Part shown: positions 7,578 to 49,593 of the stretch, in pieces
Layout of the letters: every line of letters starts with the position of its first letter
Numbering within the stretch: the stretch's first letter is position 1
Source: Solimonas variicoloris DSM 15731
GTDB lineage: Bacteria > Pseudomonadota > Gammaproteobacteria > Nevskiales > Nevskiaceae
Direction: 5' to 3'
Assembly (NCBI RefSeq): GCF_000382285.1
Contig: NZ_KB907926.1
Coordinates: 310,001-374,000, forward strand
DNA length: 64,000 nt
Notes under the pieces: generated by a model
Seen by the model: the letters and a program-made list of their open reading frames with translations, nothing else
Told to the model about the DNA's origin: nothing
Databases searched by the model: none
Position numbers and translations under genes: made by a program

Positions 7578-9938
7578 TCAGCCGCCGCAGGGCTGCGCCG
7601 GCAGCGCCTCGCCGGCCGCTCGCCAGTAGGGCTGCGCCACCGGCGGCGCGTTCCAGTAGTGCGCCGCGCGCTCGCGCCAGCGCTCGACGCGCAGCGTATC
7701 GCCGGCGCGGAAGATCGTGATCGCCCCCGCCTCGCCGCTCATCGACAGGCGCGCGCCGCAGTCGAGGTAGCGGCGCACGACCTCCGCGCGCGGATGGCCG
7801 AAGCGGTTGTGCCAGCCGCTCGCGAAGATCACCTCGCGCGCACCGACGGCGGCGACGAAGGCCGGACTCGAGGAGCTGCGGCTGCCGTGATGCGGCGCCA
7901 GCAGCACGTCGGCGCGCAGCGCCGCCGGATGGGCGTCGAGCAGCCGCGCCTCGGCGCGCCGCTCGATGTCGCCTGGCAGCAGCAGCGAGAACGGCCCGTC
8001 GATCTTCAACACGCAGGAGCGGTCATTGTCGGCGCGCGCGTCGTCCGCGCCGGCCGCGGCCGGCGGATGCAGCAGCGCGAAGCGCACGCCGTCCCACTCC
8101 CAGCGCTCGCCGTCGCGGCACGGTTCGCCGCCTTCGGTGCCGATCTCGCGCATCGGTCGCAGCAGGCGCCGCAGCGCCGGCACGCCGCCGGCGTGATCGC
8201 GATCGCCGTGCGACAGCACCAGCAGATCGACGCCGCGCAGTCCGCGCGTCAGCACGTACGGCGCGACCACCGCGGCACCGGCGTCGAAGCCGTCTTCGTA
8301 GGCGGGCCCTGCATCGAACAGCAGGCTGTGGCGCGCGGTGCGCACCAGCACCGAAAGCCCCTGCCCGACGTCGAGCACCTGCAGCTCCAGACCACCGCGC
8401 ACCGGCTGCTGCGGCGGCCACAGCAGCGGCAGCAGGCACAGGACGCCGAGCGGCCGCAGCGGCAGTCCGGCCGGCGCAAACAGCAGCAGGCTGCCGAGCA
8501 GCGCCAGGGCCAGCGCCGCCAGCGGCGGCGCCGACGGCAGCCAGGCCAGCGGCCAGTGCGCGGCGAGCGCCTGCAGCGCCGCGAGCACCCATTCGAGCAG
8601 CGTCGCCGTCGGCGGCAGCCATGCGCCGGCCAGCGCCGGCGACAGCGAAGCGGCCAGCGCGACCAGCAGCAGCGCCGGCGTCAGCAGCGCGAACAGCGGC
8701 ACCGCGAGCAGGTTGACGAACGGCGCCGCCCAGGCCAGGCCGTGAAAATAGAACAGCGTCAACGGCGCCAGCACGAAGCTCAGGAACAGCTGCACGCGCA
8801 CCGCGGCGCGCCAGGCCGGCTGCGGCCGCCAGCGACCGACGACCAGATAGAAGATCGCGCCGACGGCGGCGAACGACAGCCACAGGCCCGGCGCCAGCAC
8901 GGCGCAAGGATCGGCGGCGACGATCGCCAGCCAGGCCAGCGCCAGCGCCCGGCTCGGTTGCGTGAAGCGGTACAGCGCCGCCGCAGCGACCAGCACCAGC
9001 AGCATGAACAGGGCGCGGGCAACCGGCGGTTCGAAGCCGGCGAGCAGCGCGTAGACGGTGGCGACGCCGGCCGAACCGAACAGCGCGGCGCGCTGCGCCG
9101 GCAGGCGCAGGCACAGCCACGCCGACAGCGACCAGGCCCAGCGCAGCACGAAGTACGCGAAACCCGACACCAGCGCCAGATTGAAGCCGGAGATCGCGAT
9201 CAGGTGCGTGGTGCCGGTCAGCCGGAAGGCGTCCCAGTCGGCGTCGCCCAGTTCGGCAGTGGCGCCGATCGTCAGCGCCTTGAGCAGTGCGGCGCCCGGG
9301 CGCGCGCCGAGCGTGGCGTCGACGCGATCGCTCCAGGCCTGGCGCAGGCGCAGCACCGGCCAGGCGCCGGCCGCCGCGCAAGACTCCGCCTCGCGCACCG
9401 TTGCCGTCGCGCCGAGATGCTGACGGAACAGCCAGGCCTCGTAGTCGAAGCCGCCGGGATTCAGCGAACCGTGCGGCGCGCGCAGGCGCAGTTTCAGGCG
9501 CCAGCACTGGCCGCCGGCCGGTGCCGCGTCGGTGCGGTACCACGACACGCGGATGCGCGACGGCAGGTCCGCGCCCGGTTCCGGCACGAAGGTGAAGCGC
9601 CAGGTGCGGCGCGGGGCGCCGTCCTCGCCGGCCGGCTCGTCGGCGCGTTCCGGCAGCGAGGCGATCGTGCCGCGCACCCAGCGTTCCTCGTTGTAGCGCG
9701 CGTCGAGCCAGCGCGCGTCCAGCTGGCGCTGCGCGTGCCAGCCCGTCAGCAGCGCGCCGAGCAGCGCCGCGAGCAGCAGCGCGCGACCGCGCCACGGCCA
9801 CAGCGCCGGCGGCAGCAGCGCGGCGTACCAGTACGGCGACAACAGGGACGGCAGGGCGTGCACGAACAGCACGCCCGCCGTGAAGGCGATCGCTACGGCA
9901 CGGAGGTCTGCACCAGGCGCCCGCTGTCGAGCGTCCAT
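7578..9938 (-). CDS. comEC: ComEC/Rec2-family DNA-uptake channel
   Basis: Inner-membrane protein that passes single-stranded DNA into the cytoplasm during natural transformation. The 786-residue protein has N-terminal membrane helices, a ComEC_N extracellular domain, the Competence core ([18 protein letters not shown]) with many membrane segments, and a C-terminal metallo-beta-lactamase domain ([41 protein letters not shown]). The chosen ATG at 9938 lies 46 bp inside the end of lolD, so translation is probably coupled. Other competence genes are not in the window. Confidence 0.93.
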
Positions 9939-27352: not shown

Positions 27353-28594
27353 CTACTCGAACTCCATGCCGCCGGCGCCCTTGCGCACCGAGAAGCCGGC
27401 GCCGGCGAGATCGTCGAAGATCTGCCGCGCGTGCGCCTCGTCCTGAGCCTCGACCATCACCTCGAGCGTGGCGTCCTTGGCATGGCCGCGGTGCAGGCGC
27501 TCGTGGTGGACCTGGATGATGTTGCCGCCCGACTCGCCGATGCGGCCGGCGACGCGGGCGAGAAAGCCCGGCCGGTCCTCGATGACGATCGACAGCGAGA
27601 TCAGCCGCGACTCGTTGACGAGCTGGCGCAGCAACACCGACGCGAGCAGGCGCGTGTCGACATTGCCGCCGGAGACGACGAGGCCGACGTGGCGGCCGGC
27701 GAAGCGCGCCGGATCGGTCAACAGCGCGGCCAGGCCGACGGCGCCGGCGCCTTCGGCGATGACCTTCTCGATCGAGGCGAGCAGGCCGATCGCGCGCTCG
27801 ATCGCCTGCTCATCGACGCGCATCAGCTCGGCGACGTGCTCGCGGATGATCGCCAGCGTCAGGTGGCCGATGTTCTTGACGGCGATGCCCTCGGCGATCG
27901 TCTGGCCGCCCTTGACCAGCGACAGGTCGCCCTGCAGCGCCGCGTACGCGGAAGGATAGGCCGCCGACTCGACGCCGACGACGCGGATCGCCGGATCGAT
28001 GCCGTGCGCGGCGATCGCCATGCCGGAGATCAGGCCACCGCCGCCGACCGGCACGATCAGCGTGTCCAGTTCCGGCGCCTGCTCGAGCATTTCCAGCGCG
28101 ACCGTGCCCTGGCCGGCGATCACGTACGGATCGTCGTAAGGGTGGACCAGCGTCATGCCGCGCTTGCCGATCAGCTCGGTCTCGAGGAAAGCCTGGGCAT
28201 CGGCCAGGGTCTCGCCGTGCAGGATCACTTCGCCGCCGAGTTCGCGCGTATTGCGGACCTTGGTGAACGGCGTGTTGCCCGGCATGACGATGACGCTTTT
28301 GATGCCGAGCCGCGTGGCGTGGTAGGCGACGCCCTGCGCGTGATTGCCGGCCGACATCGCAGCGACCCCGGCGGCGCGCTCGGCTTCGCTGAGACTGGCC
28401 AGCTTGTTGAGCGCACCGCGTTCCTTGAACGAGGCGGTGAACTGGAAGTTCTCGAACTTGATCCAGACCTCGGCGCCGGTGATCTTCGACAGCACGCGCG
28501 AGCGCGTGCACGGCGTGCGCACGATCTGGCCGGCGATCACCTGCGCGGCGCGGCGCACATCGTCAAAGCTCACGGGGGACTGCGAAGCGTTCAT
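27353..28594 (-). CDS. ilvA: Threonine dehydratase (threonine ammonia-lyase) with C-terminal ACT-like domain
   Basis: PLP enzyme converting threonine to 2-oxobutyrate and ammonia. The 413-residue protein has the PLP-lysine motif FTASFKERGALNKL, the phosphate-binding loop PVGGGGLISGM, and the C-terminal VSGGNVD. An ACT-like regulatory segment follows (about residues 330-410: SIVIEDRPGFLARVAGRIGE). One ACT domain and this length fit the short biosynthetic/catabolic class rather than E. coli IlvA. It could feed isoleucine synthesis together with ilvD, which lies elsewhere in the window. Confidence 0.92.
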   Translation of the reverse strand: MNASQSPVSFDDVRRAAQVIAGQIVRTPCTRSRVLSKITGAEVWIKFENFQFTASFKERGALNKLASLSEAERAAGVAAMSAGNHAQGVAYHATRLGIKSVIVMPGNTPFTKVRNTRELGGEVILHGETLADAQAFLETELIGKRGMTLVHPYDDPYVIAGQGTVALEMLEQAPELDTLIVPVGGGGLISGMAIAAHGIDPAIRVVGVESAAYPSAYAALQGDLSLVKGGQTIAEGIAVKNIGHLTLAIIREHVAELMRVDEQAIERAIGLLASIEKVIAEGAGAVGLAALLTDPARFAGRHVGLVVSGGNVDTRLLASVLLRQLVNESRLISLSIVIEDRPGFLARVAGRIGESGGNIIQVHHERLHRGHAKDATLEVMVEAQDEAHARQIFDDLAGAGFSVRKGAGGMEFE

Positions 28595-44461: not shown

Positions 44462-45544
44462 CTAGACCAGCACCTTGCCGTGGCGCACGAACGGCGGCTT
44501 GACGAGGCGCGCCGCGACCCACTGGCCGCGGATCTCAACCTCGCAGGCACCCTCGGCGCCGGCGTCGATGCGCGCCAGCGCAACCGACTGCTTCATCGTC
44601 GGCGCGAAGCCGCCGCTGGTGGTCTCGCCGCTGGCGCCGTTGGCGAAGCGCAACTTCATGTGCGCGCGCACGATGCCGCGGCCCTCCAGCACCAGGCCGA
44701 CGAACTTCTTCGGGCTGGCGCCGCGCAGCGGCTCGATCGCGGTGCGACCGATGAAGTCTCGGTCCTGCGGCTCCCACGCGATCGTCCAGCCAAGGCCGGA
44801 CTCAAGCGGCTGCGTCGCTTCATCCATGTCCTGGCCGTAGAGGTTCATGCCGGCCTCGAGGCGCAGCGTGTCGCGGGCACCGAGACCGCAGGGCTTGACG
44901 CCGTCGGCAAGCAGACCCTGCCAGAGCGCGACCAGATCGGCGTGCGGCAGAATCAGCTCGAAGCCGTCCTCGCCGGTATAGCCGGTGCGGGCGACGAACC
45001 ATTCGCCGTCATGCGCCGCCTGAAAGTTGACGAGCGCTTCGGCCGGCACGCGCAGCGCCTGCGGCAGCCGCGGCACGACCTGCGCGCGGGCCTGCGGCCC
45101 CTGCACGGCGAGGATGCCGAGGTCGTCGCGATGACGGACCTCGACGCCGAACGCCGGCGCCTGCTGGCGGATCCAGGCCAGATCCTTGTCGGTGGTGCCG
45201 GCGTTGACGACCAGACGGAACCAGCTCTCGTCGAGGAAATAGCAGATGAGATCGTCGAGGATGCCGCCGTCCTCGCGCAGCATGCAGGAATACAGGGCCT
45301 TGCCTGGCTGCGTCAGCTTGGCGACGTCGTTGGCGAGCAGCTTGCGCAGGAACTCGCGCGTGCGCGCGCCGTGCAAATCGACGGCCGTCATGTGGGCGAC
45401 GTCGAACATGCCGGCGGCCTGGCGCACCGCGTGGTGCTCGTCGAGCTGGGACTGGTACTGGATCGGCATGTCCCAGCCGGCGAAATCGACCAGCTTGGCG
45501 CCAAGACGGACGTGTTCAGCGTGCAGCGCTGTCTGCTTGAGCAT
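44462..45544 (-). CDS. gcvT: Glycine cleavage system T protein (aminomethyltransferase)
   Basis: Transfers the methylene group from the aminomethyl-lipoyl H protein to tetrahydrofolate, releasing ammonia. The 360-residue protein has [70 protein letters not shown] and [17 protein letters not shown]. It is the first gene of the operon, 40 bp below the glycine riboswitch. Confidence 0.97.
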
Positions 45545-45579: not shown

Positions 45580-45766
45580 CGCCCCTCTGTCCGGTGTACC
45601 TGAAAGTTCGAAAGCGGATGGACCGCTTCTGCCTCGTCGGTGGCCTGCCTTGCGGCGGGCGCTCTCCAGAGTGTTATGCAGCACCGCGCTCCGTTTGCCT
45701 GAGCGATTCCGGGCGGATTTGCGCCTTCGGCGCCACCGTTGCCGGTGGTCTCTCGCGCGGTGCTGC
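45580..45766 (-). ncRNA. Tandem glycine riboswitch
   Basis: Read on the minus strand. Aptamer 1 spans 45765-45679: P1 strands CAGCACCGCGC and GCGCGGTGCTG are fully complementary, enclosing GAGAGACCACCGG, GGCGCCGAAGGCGCAAA and CTCAGGCAAACGGA. A short linker leads to aptamer 2 (45672-45585): CTCTGGAGAG, CACCGACGAGGCAGAAGC, CTTTCAGGTACACCGGACAGAG. These conserved cores define the two-domain glycine riboswitch, which activates gcv operons when glycine is abundant. It ends about 40 nt before gcvT. Confidence 0.95.
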
Positions 45767-45855
45767 TTGCTACTTTAAAACAAACTCGGCCACGGCCATC
45801 CGTGGCGAAACCGCATGTCCCGATCCGGCCCCTGCCCGGCCATCCATGGCCGGGC

Positions 45856-45900
45856 GTTCCCGGCCGCGCGAAGCTGCGCTTCGCAAGCGCGGCCGGGAAC
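45856..45900. repeat. Long palindromic hairpin abutting the duplicated aptamer fragment
   Basis: GTTCCCGGCCGCGC (45856-45869) and GCGCGGCCGGGAAC (45887-45900) form a perfect 14-bp stem; inside, GAAGC-TGC-GCTTC can extend it. Smaller palindromes lie beside it: GCCACGG-CCAT-CCGTGGC (45789-45806) and GCCCGGCCAT/ATGGCCGGGC (45834-45855). The right edge of the big hairpin is exactly the left edge of the aptamer copy at 45901. Confidence 0.75.
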
Positions 45901-45977
45901 CCTGAGCGATTCCGGGCGGATTTGCGCCTTCGGCGCCACCGTTACCGGTGGTCTCTCGCGCGGTGCTGTTTGCTACT
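45901..45977 (-). repeat. Truncated second copy of glycine-riboswitch aptamer 1
   Basis: These 77 bp match 45698-45774 at 75 positions (differences at copy positions 44 and 70). The copy contains the 5' P1 strand, the GAGAGACC core and the sequence through CTCAGG, but stops there: the 3' P1 strand and the second aptamer are missing and are replaced by the palindrome. It is therefore not a complete aptamer, although it is on the same strand and upstream of the intact riboswitch. Confidence 0.9.
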
Positions 45978-46002
45978 AGATCCTTTTTGCTACTAGATCC
46001 TT
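45970..46002. repeat. 16-bp direct repeat
   Basis: TTGCTACTAGATCCTT occurs twice with a 17-bp period (45970-45985 and 45987-46002), overlapping the upstream end of the aptamer copy. It contains CTAG, a rare tetramer in such genomes. Possibly duplication scars. Confidence 0.75.
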
Positions 46003-46255
46003 GATGCCACGCCGGCCAAGGCCACCAGTACAGGTGGTCTTCCGGGACGCGGAGTGCGCGCATGATAAGCGAGCCGGCCGGCCGCTGGCGAGTCGGACAG
46101 GGCGCGGGGGCGCCCGATGCGGCGGCGTGAACTGGCACACGCGCGGCGCGCCGTCGTCAAGACAAATGCCGGTCTGCGCCAGCGGGCGTCGGCTATATTC
46201 GCCCTTTGCTTCTGGCGGCCGGCGGCGCGTCAAACAAGAACATTACGGGGGAAGC

Positions 46256-47896
46256 ATGCTTTTGCGGATGGATCGAAAGGCCGCGAGCCTGGCGCTCGCG
46301 CTCGGTGGCGCGTTCGGACCGGCATTGGCCCAGGTCACGCCCGGCCAGGTCGGCGACACATTGAAGCGGCCCGAGCCGCTGAGAGCGACGCCGGCGGCGC
46401 CGCAGATCGAGACCCCGGCGAGCAGCGCGCGCACGGTCGCGCCCGGCGGCCCGACCGTCACCGTCAGCCGCTTCGAGTTCAGCGGCAATACCGTCTTCCC
46501 GACTGCGGAACTGCAGGGCGTGATCGCCGCGTACACGCAGCGGCCGCTGACCCTGCTGGAACTGTACGAAGCCGCCGACCGCGTCACCGACTACTACGTG
46601 GCGCACGGCTACACGCTGGCTGCGGTGACGCTGCCGCCGCAGAAGATCGGCGCCGGCACCGTGCAGCTGCAGGTCAGCGAAGGCCGCATCGCCCACATCG
46701 ACGCCGACCACAACACGCTCTATAGCGACGAGCAGATCCGCCGCTACTTCGGCGCAACGCCGCCGGGCAGCATCTACCGCGGCCACGACGTCGAGGACAG
46801 CGTGCGCACGCTCAACACGCTGCCCGGTCTGCAGGCGCGTGCGGTGCTGCGGCCCGGCACGCAATACGGCACCACGGACCTCGTCGTCCGCGTCGAGGAA
46901 AAACCGGTCGAGGGTTCGATCAACGCCGACAACTTCGGCCGCAAGGACGTCGGCCGCTTCCGCGTCTCGGCGCTCGGCCAGTTCAACAATCCATTCGGCA
47001 CCGAAGACCAGCTGACGCTGATCGCGATGCGCTCCGAGGACAGCCTGCTGACCTACGGTTTTCTGGAGTACGGCCTGCCGCTGAACTTCGGCGGCACCCG
47101 CTTCAAGGTCTCGTACGGCGAAGCGGCGTTCGACGTCGTCGATGCGCCGATCGACGGCCGCAACCGCGCCGGCCGCCTGCTCGTCGAGCATCCGCTGCTG
47201 CGCGGCGGCCCGACCCAGCTCACGCTCAGCGCCGGCGTGTCGCGCACGCTCGCCAACGCCGATTTCACCGGCGCGACCTTCAACAGCACGGCGATCAACC
47301 TCGTCGAGCTCGGCGCGCAGCTGACGCACAGCTACCGCAACCTCGCGGTCACCCAGCTCAACACGACGATCCACAGCAATTTCGAGAGCCAGGACCGCGA
47401 CGATCTGCTCGCCAACGGCAGCCGCGTCACGCACGGCAAAGAACTGCTGCGCTGGGAGCTCGACGTGCAGCACCTGCAGCCGCTGCTCTGGCAGACGCAA
47501 CTGCTGGCGCGCGTCAACGGCGTCTACTCGCCGGATCCGCTGGTCGACACCGAAGCCTACTCGCTCGGCGGTCCGACCAGCGTGCGCGGCTATCCGGCCG
47601 GCGAGATCCGCGGCGACCGCGGCTACTTCGGCTCGCTGACGCTGCGCCGCCCGATCGGCTGGGCGGGGCTGCTCTGGGTGCCGCGCGTGTTCATCGAGGC
47701 CGGCAGCACTTATCTGATCGACGCGCCGGCCGGCATCGACGCCAAGGAATCGCTGAGCGCCACCGGCGTCGGCACCGACCTCGCGTGGGATCGCGTCACC
47801 ATCCGCGCCGACTGGGCCTTCCCGCTCGACAACCGCACGGTCAGCGACCAGCTCGACAGCAGCCGCGTGTTCGCGTCGCTGTCGGTCGCGTTCTGA
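46256..47896 (+). CDS. Two-partner secretion outer-membrane transporter (TpsB; ShlB/FhaC/HecB family)
   Basis: Outer-membrane pore that exports its TpsA partner. The 546-residue protein has a signal peptide, POTRA domains (about residues 60-210: VSRFEFSGNTVFPTAELQGVI, YEAADRVTDYYVAHGYTLAAVTLPPQKI, GTVQLQVSEGRI) and a 16-strand barrel with the loop motif SLGGPTSVRGYPAGEIRGDRG. It ends in a C-terminal Phe (SLSVAF), as outer-membrane barrels do. ATG 46256 follows GGGGGAA. The tpsA gene starts 17 bp later. Confidence 0.92.
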   Translation: MLLRMDRKAASLALALGGAFGPALAQVTPGQVGDTLKRPEPLRATPAAPQIETPASSARTVAPGGPTVTVSRFEFSGNTVFPTAELQGVIAAYTQRPLTLLELYEAADRVTDYYVAHGYTLAAVTLPPQKIGAGTVQLQVSEGRIAHIDADHNTLYSDEQIRRYFGATPPGSIYRGHDVEDSVRTLNTLPGLQARAVLRPGTQYGTTDLVVRVEEKPVEGSINADNFGRKDVGRFRVSALGQFNNPFGTEDQLTLIAMRSEDSLLTYGFLEYGLPLNFGGTRFKVSYGEAAFDVVDAPIDGRNRAGRLLVEHPLLRGGPTQLTLSAGVSRTLANADFTGATFNSTAINLVELGAQLTHSYRNLAVTQLNTTIHSNFESQDRDDLLANGSRVTHGKELLRWELDVQHLQPLLWQTQLLARVNGVYSPDPLVDTEAYSLGGPTSVRGYPAGEIRGDRGYFGSLTLRRPIGWAGLLWVPRVFIEAGSTYLIDAPAGIDAKESLSATGVGTDLAWDRVTIRADWAFPLDNRTVSDQLDSSRVFASLSVAF

Positions 47897-47913
47897 GCTT
47901 CCGGAGTGATCTC

Positions 47914-49593
47914 ATGACTCACCTCGCCAAGACCCACATCGCCGCCGCCGTCGCCCTGCTGGCACCGGCGCTCGCCGCCGCCAATCCGAGTGGCGGTCAG
48001 GTCGTGTCCGGCACCGTCACGATCGGCGGCCAGGGCGGCCGGATGGTCGTCACACAGACTTCTAACAGCGCCATCGTCAACTGGCAGGACTTTTCGGTCG
48101 GCGCCGACGAATCGGTGCGCTTCGATCTGCCGAGCGCTTCGGCGGCGATCCTCAATCGCGTCACCGGCACCGCGGCCTCGAACATCGCCGGCAGCATCAG
48201 CTCGAACGGCCGCGTCTTCCTCGTCAATCCGAACGGCATCGTCTTCGGGCAGGGCGCGCAGATCAACGTCGGCTCGCTGATCGCGACCACGCTCGACATC
48301 AGCGACGCCGACTTCAACGCCGGCCGCTACAAGTTCCAGCAGGGCAGCGGCATGCCCGGCAGCATCGTCAACAACGGCAGCATCGTCGCCGACGGCGGCA
48401 ACGTCATGCTGCTCGCCGACCAGGTGCACAACGGCGGCCTGATCCAGGCCAACTACGGCCGCGTCGCGCTGCACGCCGGCGCCTCGATGACGCTGTCGTT
48501 CGACGAACAGGGCCTCATCAATTACGAAGTCGCCGACAACGACGCACTGCTCGCCGCGCGCTCGCAGAACGCCGGCGTCAGCAACAGCGGCGAGCTGCGC
48601 GCCGACGGCGGCACCGTCTACATGACAGCAGTTGTCGCGCGCGCGCTGATCAAGACCGTCGTCAACAACAGCGGCACCATCTCGGCAACGCGCATGGAGT
48701 CCGGCGAGGACGGCGCGATCGTGCTTTACGGCGCCGGCGGCGACGTCGAAATCAGCGGTGACATCAACGGCGGCTACGTCTACGTCGGCAGCAGCCACGA
48801 TGTCGCCAAGACCGCCGGCGCGTCGCTGCAGCTCTACGCCGACGCGCTCAGCGTCACCGCCGGCGACTCGATCGCGCTGGCTTCGGACGGCACCGAGGGC
48901 AGCAACTCCTATCTCGGCATCGGCGACGGCATCGCCATCGGTTACGACGCCGATCTGCTCGCGCAGATCGAGCGCTTCGCCGCCGCCCATCCGGATCTGC
49001 CGAACCTGATGCCGCGCAGCTACGGCCCGAATGCCGGCTTCGAGGCCGGTGGCAGCGTCGCCCTCGGCGACGTCTACCTCGGCGGCGGCTATCTGTACGT
49101 GCGCGCCGCCTCGGTCAGCGCGCAGCACATCGCGACCGAAGGCAGCTTCTTCTACAACTACCGCCCGACCGGCGATACCAGCAACATCGACCTGGTGCAG
49201 AGCCTCAATCTGCCGATCTCGGCTTCGTCGGTGACGCTCGCCTACGGCGGCGGCGGGTACTCCGGCGACATCAACATCAGCGGCCCGCAGGCCCCGGCAC
49301 TGACGGCCAGCGGCGACGCGGCGAACTACCTGTTCATGACCAACGGCAAGATCAACGGCGCCGGGCAGCTGAGCACCAGCGGCGTGGTCGCCGTGCTCGC
49401 CGGCACCGCCGGCCCCGGTCCCGGCACGCCGGGCGAACCGACGGCCGAGGACGAGGCGACCGCCGAGACCGTCGCCACCATCACCACCGGGCTCGCCCAG
49501 ACCGTGACCGTGCACGATCTGCAGCCGGCCCTGCCGCCGGGCAGCGAGCCGGCGCTGGTCAGCGAAGAATCGCAGGCGACGCAATGCCAGTGA
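47914..49593 (+). CDS. Two-partner secretion exoprotein (TpsA), short filamentous-haemagglutinin type
   Basis: 559 residues, small for a TpsA (often over 1,000). The signal peptide (MTHLAKTHIAAAVALLAPALAAA) precedes the TPS secretion domain: NPSGGQVVSG, SNSAIVNWQDFSVGADESVRF, ILNRVTGTAASNIAGSI, and the hallmark FLVNPNGIVFGQGAQINVG. A beta-helix-like region with repeated NNSG-type turns follows (GSIVNNGSIVADGGNVML, GVSNSGELRADGGTVYM, VVNNSGTISATRM). The last residues are TQCQ, with one near-terminal cysteine. Function and receptor are unknown. Confidence 0.88.
   Translation: MTHLAKTHIAAAVALLAPALAAANPSGGQVVSGTVTIGGQGGRMVVTQTSNSAIVNWQDFSVGADESVRFDLPSASAAILNRVTGTAASNIAGSISSNGRVFLVNPNGIVFGQGAQINVGSLIATTLDISDADFNAGRYKFQQGSGMPGSIVNNGSIVADGGNVMLLADQVHNGGLIQANYGRVALHAGASMTLSFDEQGLINYEVADNDALLAARSQNAGVSNSGELRADGGTVYMTAVVARALIKTVVNNSGTISATRMESGEDGAIVLYGAGGDVEISGDINGGYVYVGSSHDVAKTAGASLQLYADALSVTAGDSIALASDGTEGSNSYLGIGDGIAIGYDADLLAQIERFAAAHPDLPNLMPRSYGPNAGFEAGGSVALGDVYLGGGYLYVRAASVSAQHIATEGSFFYNYRPTGDTSNIDLVQSLNLPISASSVTLAYGGGGYSGDINISGPQAPALTASGDAANYLFMTNGKINGAGQLSTSGVVAVLAGTAGPGPGTPGEPTAEDEATAETVATITTGLAQTVTVHDLQPALPPGSEPALVSEESQATQCQ

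Follow-up and report, generated by a model that had tools for sequence, protein, structure and literature searches.

How did a leader that carries a complete tandem glycine riboswitch come to hold a second, truncated copy of its first aptamer, and does this copy act on the operon that follows? The question is raised by the gcvT leader of a bacterial genome, designated G000, from which a window of 64,000 nucleotides (the whole stretch of DNA that was analysed) was taken. A preliminary description of the locus, made from the letters of the window, had noted the additional half-aptamer, a palindrome at its edge and an intact riboswitch next to the gene, and had proposed a recent segmental duplication or the insertion of a palindromic element. 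Other G numbers used below designate related genomes, and L numbers designate fetched loci.

The gcvT locus and its tandem riboswitch

The gcvT gene (aminomethyltransferase) occupies positions 44462-45544 of the minus strand and is an open reading frame with a match to Pfam PF01571 (GCV_T) at 1e-82. It is first in a run that we read as gcvT-gcvH-gcvPA-peroxiredoxin-gcvPB, the names of the other genes being presumed from their translations. Upstream on the same strand is a tandem glycine riboswitch (45582-45767). Its intact aptamer 1 (45677-45767, minus strand), referred to here as copy A2, passes the test for a glycine riboswitch, with 64.9 bits against Rfam family RF00504 (gathering threshold 32 bits) and a P1 helix closed at 0.997 in the folded short leader. 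Aptamer 2 (approximate limits 45582-45671, minus strand) was unreported by Rfam in a scan of the window at E<=10; its sequence is kept in 11 of 11 aligned genus members and its P1 closes when the short leader is folded, and another structure wins when aptamer 2 is folded alone. The intact tandem riboswitch of the preliminary description is thus borne out, aptamer 1 by the Rfam match and aptamer 2 by conservation and fold. Tandem aptamers in a gcv context are ordinary for Pseudomonadota according to the available portion of PMC12452182, and the riboswitch described here has the same aptamer 1, aptamer 2 and gcv context as the tandem form of RF00504; it differs by the extra truncated copy of aptamer 1 and a repeat element, E, upstream.

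A second tandem glycine riboswitch of G000 lies on C2 (L090:1190-1356), approximately 26.5 kb beyond the intact aptamer and outside the window, with matches of 64.7 and 31.4 bits, the latter just below the RF00504 gathering threshold. The gene apparently downstream of it is, presumably from its translation, L-serine dehydratase-like. Within the window, a two-partner secretion pair (46256-47896 and 47785-49593, plus strand; ShlB/FhaC-like protein and TPS-domain protein) is divergent from the gcv genes. GcvT had no match in a scan of viral contigs. Among named records, the closest by GcvT are Stenotrophobium (81%) and a Hydrocarboniphaga MAG (80%), so the genome probably belongs to that part of the Gammaproteobacteria.

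The truncated aptamer copy

The central observation of the preliminary description, a 77-bp same-strand copy with 75 matches at a distance of 203 bp, was reproduced by repeat computation (direct repeat 45698-45774 and 45901-45977; 77 nt, 75/77 or 97% identical, spacing 203). The copy farther from gcvT, A1 (45901-45977, minus strand), keeps the 5' P1 strand, P2, P3 and the core up to CTCAGG, after which the sequence turns into E; as had been described, the 3' P1 strand and aptamer 2 are missing. At 45900/45901 it joins an inverted repeat of 14 nt (45856-45869 and 45887-45900, 100% complementary, with a 17-nt spacer that itself contains a short stem), which agrees with the claim that the copy ends at the edge of a palindrome. 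That palindrome is real and is not random: it is hairpin 1 of E. The segment between the two flank copies (45775-45900, minus strand, 126 bp) holds one E, with a covariance-model match at 45794-45901.

The search with the Rfam model on the minus strand that had been recommended returned RF00504 for both copies, at 45767-45677 with 64.9 bits and at 45970-45880 with 37.5 bits. The second match lies above the gathering threshold, and A1 still reaches 37.5 bits because sequence of E is aligned, with mismatches, to the absent 3' P1 strand; only in this way is the match full-length. An own 3' P1 strand for A1 was not found in any of the eight genomes with this layout, in each of which the sequence becomes E after CTCAGG, and A1 therefore cannot form a canonical aptamer of its own.

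The direct repeats reported at the other end of A1 (given as 16 bp) were also recovered, as a near-tandem repeat of 17 nt (45966-45982 and 45983-45999, 94%). This repeat (45966-45999) is a separate event, as it is not present in the close relative G007. Candidate signals for transcription occur on both sides of A1. A -10-like TAAAGT just upstream of intact aptamer 1 (45772-45777, minus strand) is a candidate read from the sequence; similar strings, namely TAAAGT, TAAACT or TAAGAT, precede the aptamer in several relatives, and the promoter scan did not report the string at 45772-45777. Upstream of A1 there is a sigma70-like promoter match (46062-46091, minus strand; 1 found versus 0.1 expected in shuffled sequences). 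With one candidate upstream of A1 and another between the copies, either transcript is therefore possible. The right end of E forms a terminator-like hairpin followed by a T-rich stretch (45789-45806, minus strand; 2 found in the region versus 0.7 expected in shuffles), and such a T run at the right end of E was not seen in the sequences of G001, G006, G008 and G024.

A family of short hairpin repeats

When the region was searched by BLAST against its own genome, related copies turned up at C26 (three in a row), C5 and C1. E, a repeat of ~110 bp with three hairpins, was found with a covariance model (E<=1e-5) in 51 of 58 family genomes at 0-61 copies each, including 10 copies in G000. It was also found in 28 of 274 genomes sampled across the class, the own genome included (E<=1e-6).

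Forty-six copies, selected with a pattern requiring a GGT edge, were aligned and gave the consensus order of GGTGAGC (or GGT followed by other letters), hairpin 1, hairpin 2 CCCGGCCAnGGAnGGCCGGG, a spacer and hairpin 3 CGCCAnGGAnGGC, with a right edge of GGATGGC or GGACGGC in these pattern-picked copies. Among 60 copies found by the model, the left edge is GGT in 53 and GGC, GGA or GCT in the others. Hairpin 1, which in the window is the 14-bp inverted repeat with its spacer (45856-45900, minus strand), is variable in sequence and mostly paired across the family: five stem pairs are changed on both sides in 7-23 of the 46 sequences and broken or gapped in 0-7. The alignment places hairpin 2 of the window copy at 45835-45854 (CCCGGCCATGGATGGCCGGG) and hairpin 3 at 45795-45807 (CGCCAnGGATGGC), both on the minus strand. 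At the base of hairpin 1, the gcvT copies of G000, G007, G008 and G057 have pairs instead of a GA/GA mismatch. Loops in the alignment show an AnGGA motif, which we take to resemble the CsrA/RsmA-binding motif.

The three copies in a row at C26 of G000 span 7620-7914 (L088), between genes which look like ppc and metK, these names being presumptive. In G017, the copies of E at L166, L278, L280 and L281 are embedded in a larger composite repeat; all have CCTGTCGAAGG as their left flank, and their right flanks are similar.

The layout in related genomes

In G007, the gcvT leader aligns colinearly with the window and contains both aptamer-1 copies and E, the element being 94% identical to that of G000 at a divergence of 26 of 360 third positions in gcvT. 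The layout also occurs in the gcvT leaders of G001, G006 and G008. In G003, the leader is cut by a contig end, and the end of a second contig carries a truncated copy and the start of E. Six of 11 genus members thus have E in their gcvT leader (G003 by inference across two contig ends), and the other five are without it. Beyond the genus, G024 carries two truncated copies and two E before an intact riboswitch, and G057, of a third genus, has one truncated copy with a further E upstream. The junction CTCAGG/GT is identical in every gcvT layout (G000, G007, G001, G006, G008, G003, G024 and G057). Among 50 leaders scanned, extra aptamer-1 matches occur in seven (G000, G007, G006, G001, G008, G024 and G057); of the other 43, one aptamer-1 match was found in 42, the contig-cut G003 included, and none in one (G020). 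The 50 leaders derive from 58 family genomes, three of which had no gcvT match at 1e-80 and five of which (G070, G045, G022, G049 and G011) matched and fall outside the set. In the leader of G047 (L226), an E-like sequence is inserted behind aptamer 2, with a short tandem array between it and gcvT.

A duplication private to this genome is excluded by these relatives. The part of the earlier proposal that invoked insertion of a palindromic element stands, and the part that implied an event confined to this genome does not. The preliminary description had also reasoned that the same arrangement in distant relatives would speak against a recent duplication, and the arrangement is indeed present in two other genera; the copies, however, follow the aptamer sequence of each genome. 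Truncated and intact copies within a genome differ at 0-3 positions over 67-71 nt (eight genomes), as compared with 5-12 differences between the intact copies of different genomes in 10 of 11 pairs of equal length and one difference in the sisters G000 and G007. A1 would thus appear to track the aptamer of its own genome, either through repeated insertion at one nucleotide or through mutual conversion of the copies.

Comparison of E copies bears on the first of these possibilities. The gcvT E of G006 is 0.84 identical to a copy outside gcvT in the same genome (L250) and 0.75 to the best gcvT copy. The corresponding values are 0.78 versus 0.74 for G024 and 0.78 versus 0.75 for G057, both small margins, and the gcvT copies of G000, G001 and G008, with identities of 0.78-0.82, are undecisive; independence of every gcvT insertion is accordingly rejected as a general claim. 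In the gcvT gene tree, in which inner support is weak, G008 (with the layout) pairs with G010 (without it). Because of these identities, the G008/G010 pairing and the presence of the layout in three genera, in most scanned members of which it is absent, we suggest that E probably arrived three or more separate times at one nucleotide of the gcvT leader. An alternative to repeated arrival is easy loss by recombination between the copies. The layout is best described as an insertion scar whose flank is doubled; it predates this genome and has probably arisen more than once at this nucleotide.

Flank duplication at other copies of E

The doubled flank has counterparts at other loci. In a first sample of 75 rows of E copies, biased toward copies like that of the window and with left edges partly picked by the GGT pattern, the upstream flank was aligned with the downstream flank. 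A score of 36 or more was obtained for 26 of 75 rows, 18 of which end within 2 nt of the left edge of E; the other eight belong to loci with consecutive E copies, at which E itself becomes part of the alignment. Shuffled pairings of this sample are inflated by E-like sequence (99% at 73, maximum 172), and the control of the second sample is cleaner. The distinct copies number 18 overall (L214 being the same as L239, and L165 counting twice): seven at gcvT, three at ddlB, two each at mutL and typA, and one each at mtnC, a HAD-type gene, a gene end in G012 and L156. The gene names at these loci are our presumptions from translations.

A largely fresh sample of 60 copies was taken by score order with 12 previously used genomes omitted; it includes three copies from G057, for which the gcvT leader was already known, and L365, which equals L153 and had shown no repeat before. 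A score of at least 36 was reached by three of the 60 copies, two of them at the left edge (L347, ddlB in G065, and L337, the 3' end of a response-regulator gene in G068); the third, L309, has a repeat of 113 nt that ends 47 nt from the edge of E. Shuffled pairings of this sample reach 33 at 99.9% and 38 at maximum. For the remaining 57 copies no long flank repeat was detected at this threshold, duplications shorter than ~15 nt being of a size that would be missed, and the idea that every E carries long flank repeats is rejected. Two copies below the threshold look right by gene, at the 3' end of a tRNA-Ser (L319, tRNA found) and at a nirB-like 5' end (L351). A weaker case is a tRNA-like 5' part in G006 (L256), where ARAGORN found no complete tRNA. 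In G000, a diverged E-like copy at C12 (L121, ~28012-28065) has a 47-nt flank repeat at 85% that resembles a duplicated gene end, and stands outside the 18 copies counted.

The detected flank copies vary from 31 to 131 nt. Duplication of long flanks does occur and is linked to the left edge of E, in a small minority of copies (2 of 60 in the fresh sample), and outside E arrays the flank copy ends nearly always at that edge.

Empty sites and codon evidence

Several of these loci have relatives that carry the flank once and lack E. For the response regulator, G017 and G066 are such relatives, the query halves overlapping by 51 bp. For ddlB, the flank is present once in G001, G008, G010, G004 and G009 (overlaps of 52, 33, 47, 33 and 33 bp, respectively); the halves are 98 bp apart in G002 and 69 bp apart in G006, and G005 gives one long weak match. 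In G000 the ddlB fragment still overlaps the preceding gene by ATGA, as in the empty G001, G008 and G010. Nine genus members have a typA gene end without E in the aligned stretch.

Over 13 coding copies, fragment and intact end differ by 38 synonymous codons and 13 others. Of the latter, five precede a start codon, one is a stop codon, and a single Q/K change enters the count twice, once for each of two sister genomes. For the response regulator, the 13 codons compared show synonymous differences only, in the fragments as well. Compared with the two empty-site genes, the fragment of G068 differs at 5 and 5 codons and its intact end at 7 and 9; for G067 the values are 6 and 7 versus 9 and 9. 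Both copies share a derived GGG codon relative to G017 and G066. At typA, CGT is present in both intact copies and CGC in both fragments and in nine of nine other genomes; other codons depart in the fragments, so that the picture is mixed. A plain staggered-cut duplication fits the coding cases poorly because the copies differ mainly by synonymous codons, and a dead fragment should gather more amino-acid changes. Compared with a plain staggered cut, recombination with a relative that brought in the intact end together with E is weakly favoured by the codon pattern.

Origin of the duplication

We consider it probable, at roughly 0.72, that a copy of the ~110-bp hairpin element E inserted into the gcvT leader just behind the CTCAGG of aptamer 1 and that about 77 bp or more of the leader were doubled in the process. 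The left copy, A1, would have been cut off at E with loss of its 3' P1 strand, and the right copy would have remained continuous with the rest of the leader, so as to leave a complete tandem riboswitch next to gcvT. E is a repeat family, empty sites exist in relatives at several loci, and the insertion is found at the same aptamer nucleotide in three genera. That E is mobile and itself did the doubling is what these observations suggest. The doubling could have taken either of two routes, a long staggered target duplication, or joining of the left end completed by homologous recombination with neighbouring DNA. A transposase of the RAYT type is not supported as a necessary mover: Y1_Tnp (PF01797) matched 15 of 25 genomes at E<=0.001, with G000 just over the cut-off, and no match was found in G003 and G010, which hold 24 and 38 copies of E.

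The second route may also be taken as an explanation in its own right, a rival which we hold to be less likely than not and yet to carry real weight. The left end of E would join a G run of the target, after which a relative or a sister chromosome with E beside the same gene would supply the sequence on the right of E, and this would recombine and restore the gene; the fragment would be the old end of the resident and the intact end would have come with E. The fixed left edge and variable right side of E are in keeping with this, as are the excess of synonymous codon differences (38 versus 13 over the 13 coding copies), the response-regulator fragments that are somewhat closer to the empty-site genes (5-7 versus 7-9 codons), and an E between mtnD- and mtnC-like genes in G066 at which no duplication was detected (L339). 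The typA signs are mixed, with CGT/CGC in its favour and other fragment codons departing, and both the shared GGG codon of the response-regulator copies and the near identity of the gcvT copies within each genome (0-3 of 67-71) argue against it.

Tandem duplication by slippage appears unlikely. In that case E would first have been located upstream of the leader, the unit of E and aptamer would have been doubled through microhomology of G runs, and the outer E would have been lost later. Arrays of the order E'-A-E-A in G008 (with a degraded outer E), G057, mutL of G010 and ddlB of G003, and the three E in a row at C26, are what such a process would leave. No outer E is seen upstream of A1, however, in the sequences of G000, G007, G001 and G006, and there is no room for one where the fragment overlaps the preceding gene, as it does at ddlB of G000 in the manner of the empty relatives, or the preceding stop codon, as at mtnC of G006. 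An assembly artefact is highly improbable, for although the genome is a draft in 48 contigs and G003 breaks inside the same segment, the separately assembled G007, G001, G006, G008, G024 and G057 show the same layout with substitutions of their own.

Effect of the half-aptamer on the riboswitch

With E insertion as the preferred origin, A1 would be a by-product that has no binding function of its own, and the operon would still be regulated by A2 and aptamer 2. The preliminary description had raised competition between A1 and aptamer 1 for pairing, and on that basis A1 and E might be retained for regulation: two 5' P1 strands would contend for one 3' P1 strand, and the response to glycine would shift, a use which we regard as quite unlikely. 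A1 does retain the core of the aptamer, and in eight genomes its P1 sequence follows that of the genome in which it lies. Between G000 and G007, it has changed at 1 of 65 sites, as has the intact copy (1/65), compared with 7/126 for E and 46/272 for the upstream region; the low rate of change in A1 may be a hint of constraint or of conversion, over few sites. In the long leader of G000, the 3' P1 strand is predicted at equilibrium to pair with A1 (mean 0.58) more than with A2 (0.36), compared with 0.997 for A2 in the short leader.

The predicted competition holds in part of the group only. Beyond G000, A1 wins in G007 and G024, the result is mixed in G008 and negligible in G001 and G006, and in G057 neither strand pairs well, all by equilibrium folding, which for RNAs of 400-600 nt is weak evidence. 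In addition, 5 of 11 genus members do without A1, and the -10-like TAAAGT lies between A1 and A2, so A1 may be outside the mRNA. A1 may therefore compete for P1 in some species only.

Comparison with known systems

The odd half-riboswitch of this leader is an insertion scar common to relatives, and it carries a caution for annotation in that an Rfam match over the gathering threshold, here 37.5 bits, can be a truncated copy. E itself was rejected as a known Rfam RNA, as no family exceeds its gathering threshold on E in the window. Sub-gathering matches in the window were TwoAYGGAY (RF01731; 19.0 of 43 bits) and Termite-flg (RF01729; 23.5 of 40 bits). The AnGGAn loops of E recall the name of the former, with a match that is far below gathering; both families are absent at E<=1 from seven other E-bearing loci, over the E copies of which Rfam gave no match at this threshold, three weak matches falling elsewhere or brushing an E copy. 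A word search of open-licence literature, by titles and the beginnings of abstracts, found no description of E or of a truncated glycine aptamer beside a repeat, and 'truncat' is absent from the available main text of both PMC6944388 and PMC12452182.

Among classes of mobile and repetitive DNA, E has partial counterparts. Terminal inverted repeats of the MITE type were not found, since on inspection of the alignment GGTGAGC and GGATGGC are not inverted copies; in place of a short fixed target duplication, the flank copies vary from 31 to 131 nt and most E are without one, with duplications below ~15 nt liable to be missed. Integrative elements that restore a gene end are kilobases long and carry an integrase. 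They leave an old gene-end fragment on one side and an intact end on the other, as at E, whereas the inserted part here is roughly 110-190 bp. The REP/BIME palindromes, with their GTAG and CGTC families (PMC3733652, as seen in part), are short hairpin repeats with many copies per genome, as is E. REP of the GTAG type often provides a stop codon at its edge, according to the same portion of that source, and the GGTGAG of E could do likewise. E differs in that its ~110 bp hold three hairpins, that its edge is of the GGTGAG type where REP has GTAG, and that some copies have long duplicated flanks; the GTAG tag was not found at the edges of E (left GGT, GGC, GGA or GCT in 60 copies; right GGATGGC or GGACGGC), and the word 'duplication' is not mentioned in the available main text of PMC3733652.

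The findings point to a repeat family able to enter essential genes without destroying them. As a tentative and somewhat speculative extension, E might represent an undescribed class of very small protein-free mobile elements of Gammaproteobacteria, which would enter beside G runs at the ends of essential genes or structured RNAs and leave the host gene whole since their arrival either creates or imports an intact version of the broken end; the glycine riboswitch, hit repeatedly at one nucleotide, would then be a natural hot spot. A precedent for the flanks is offered by insertion sequences of the IS1549/IS1634 family, which are 1500-2000 bp long and are bounded by long variable direct repeats of 8-514 bp, for which no model had been proposed by 2008 (the consulted part of PMC2266710). 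E shares these variable-length long flank repeats, in 18 copies and two fresh ones with most copies lacking them, and differs in that ~110 bp leaves no space for a transposase gene. Such duplication of long, variable flanks is now seen with an element of ~110 bp for which related genomes hold empty sites, and its mechanism is thereby accessible to comparative and experimental tests.
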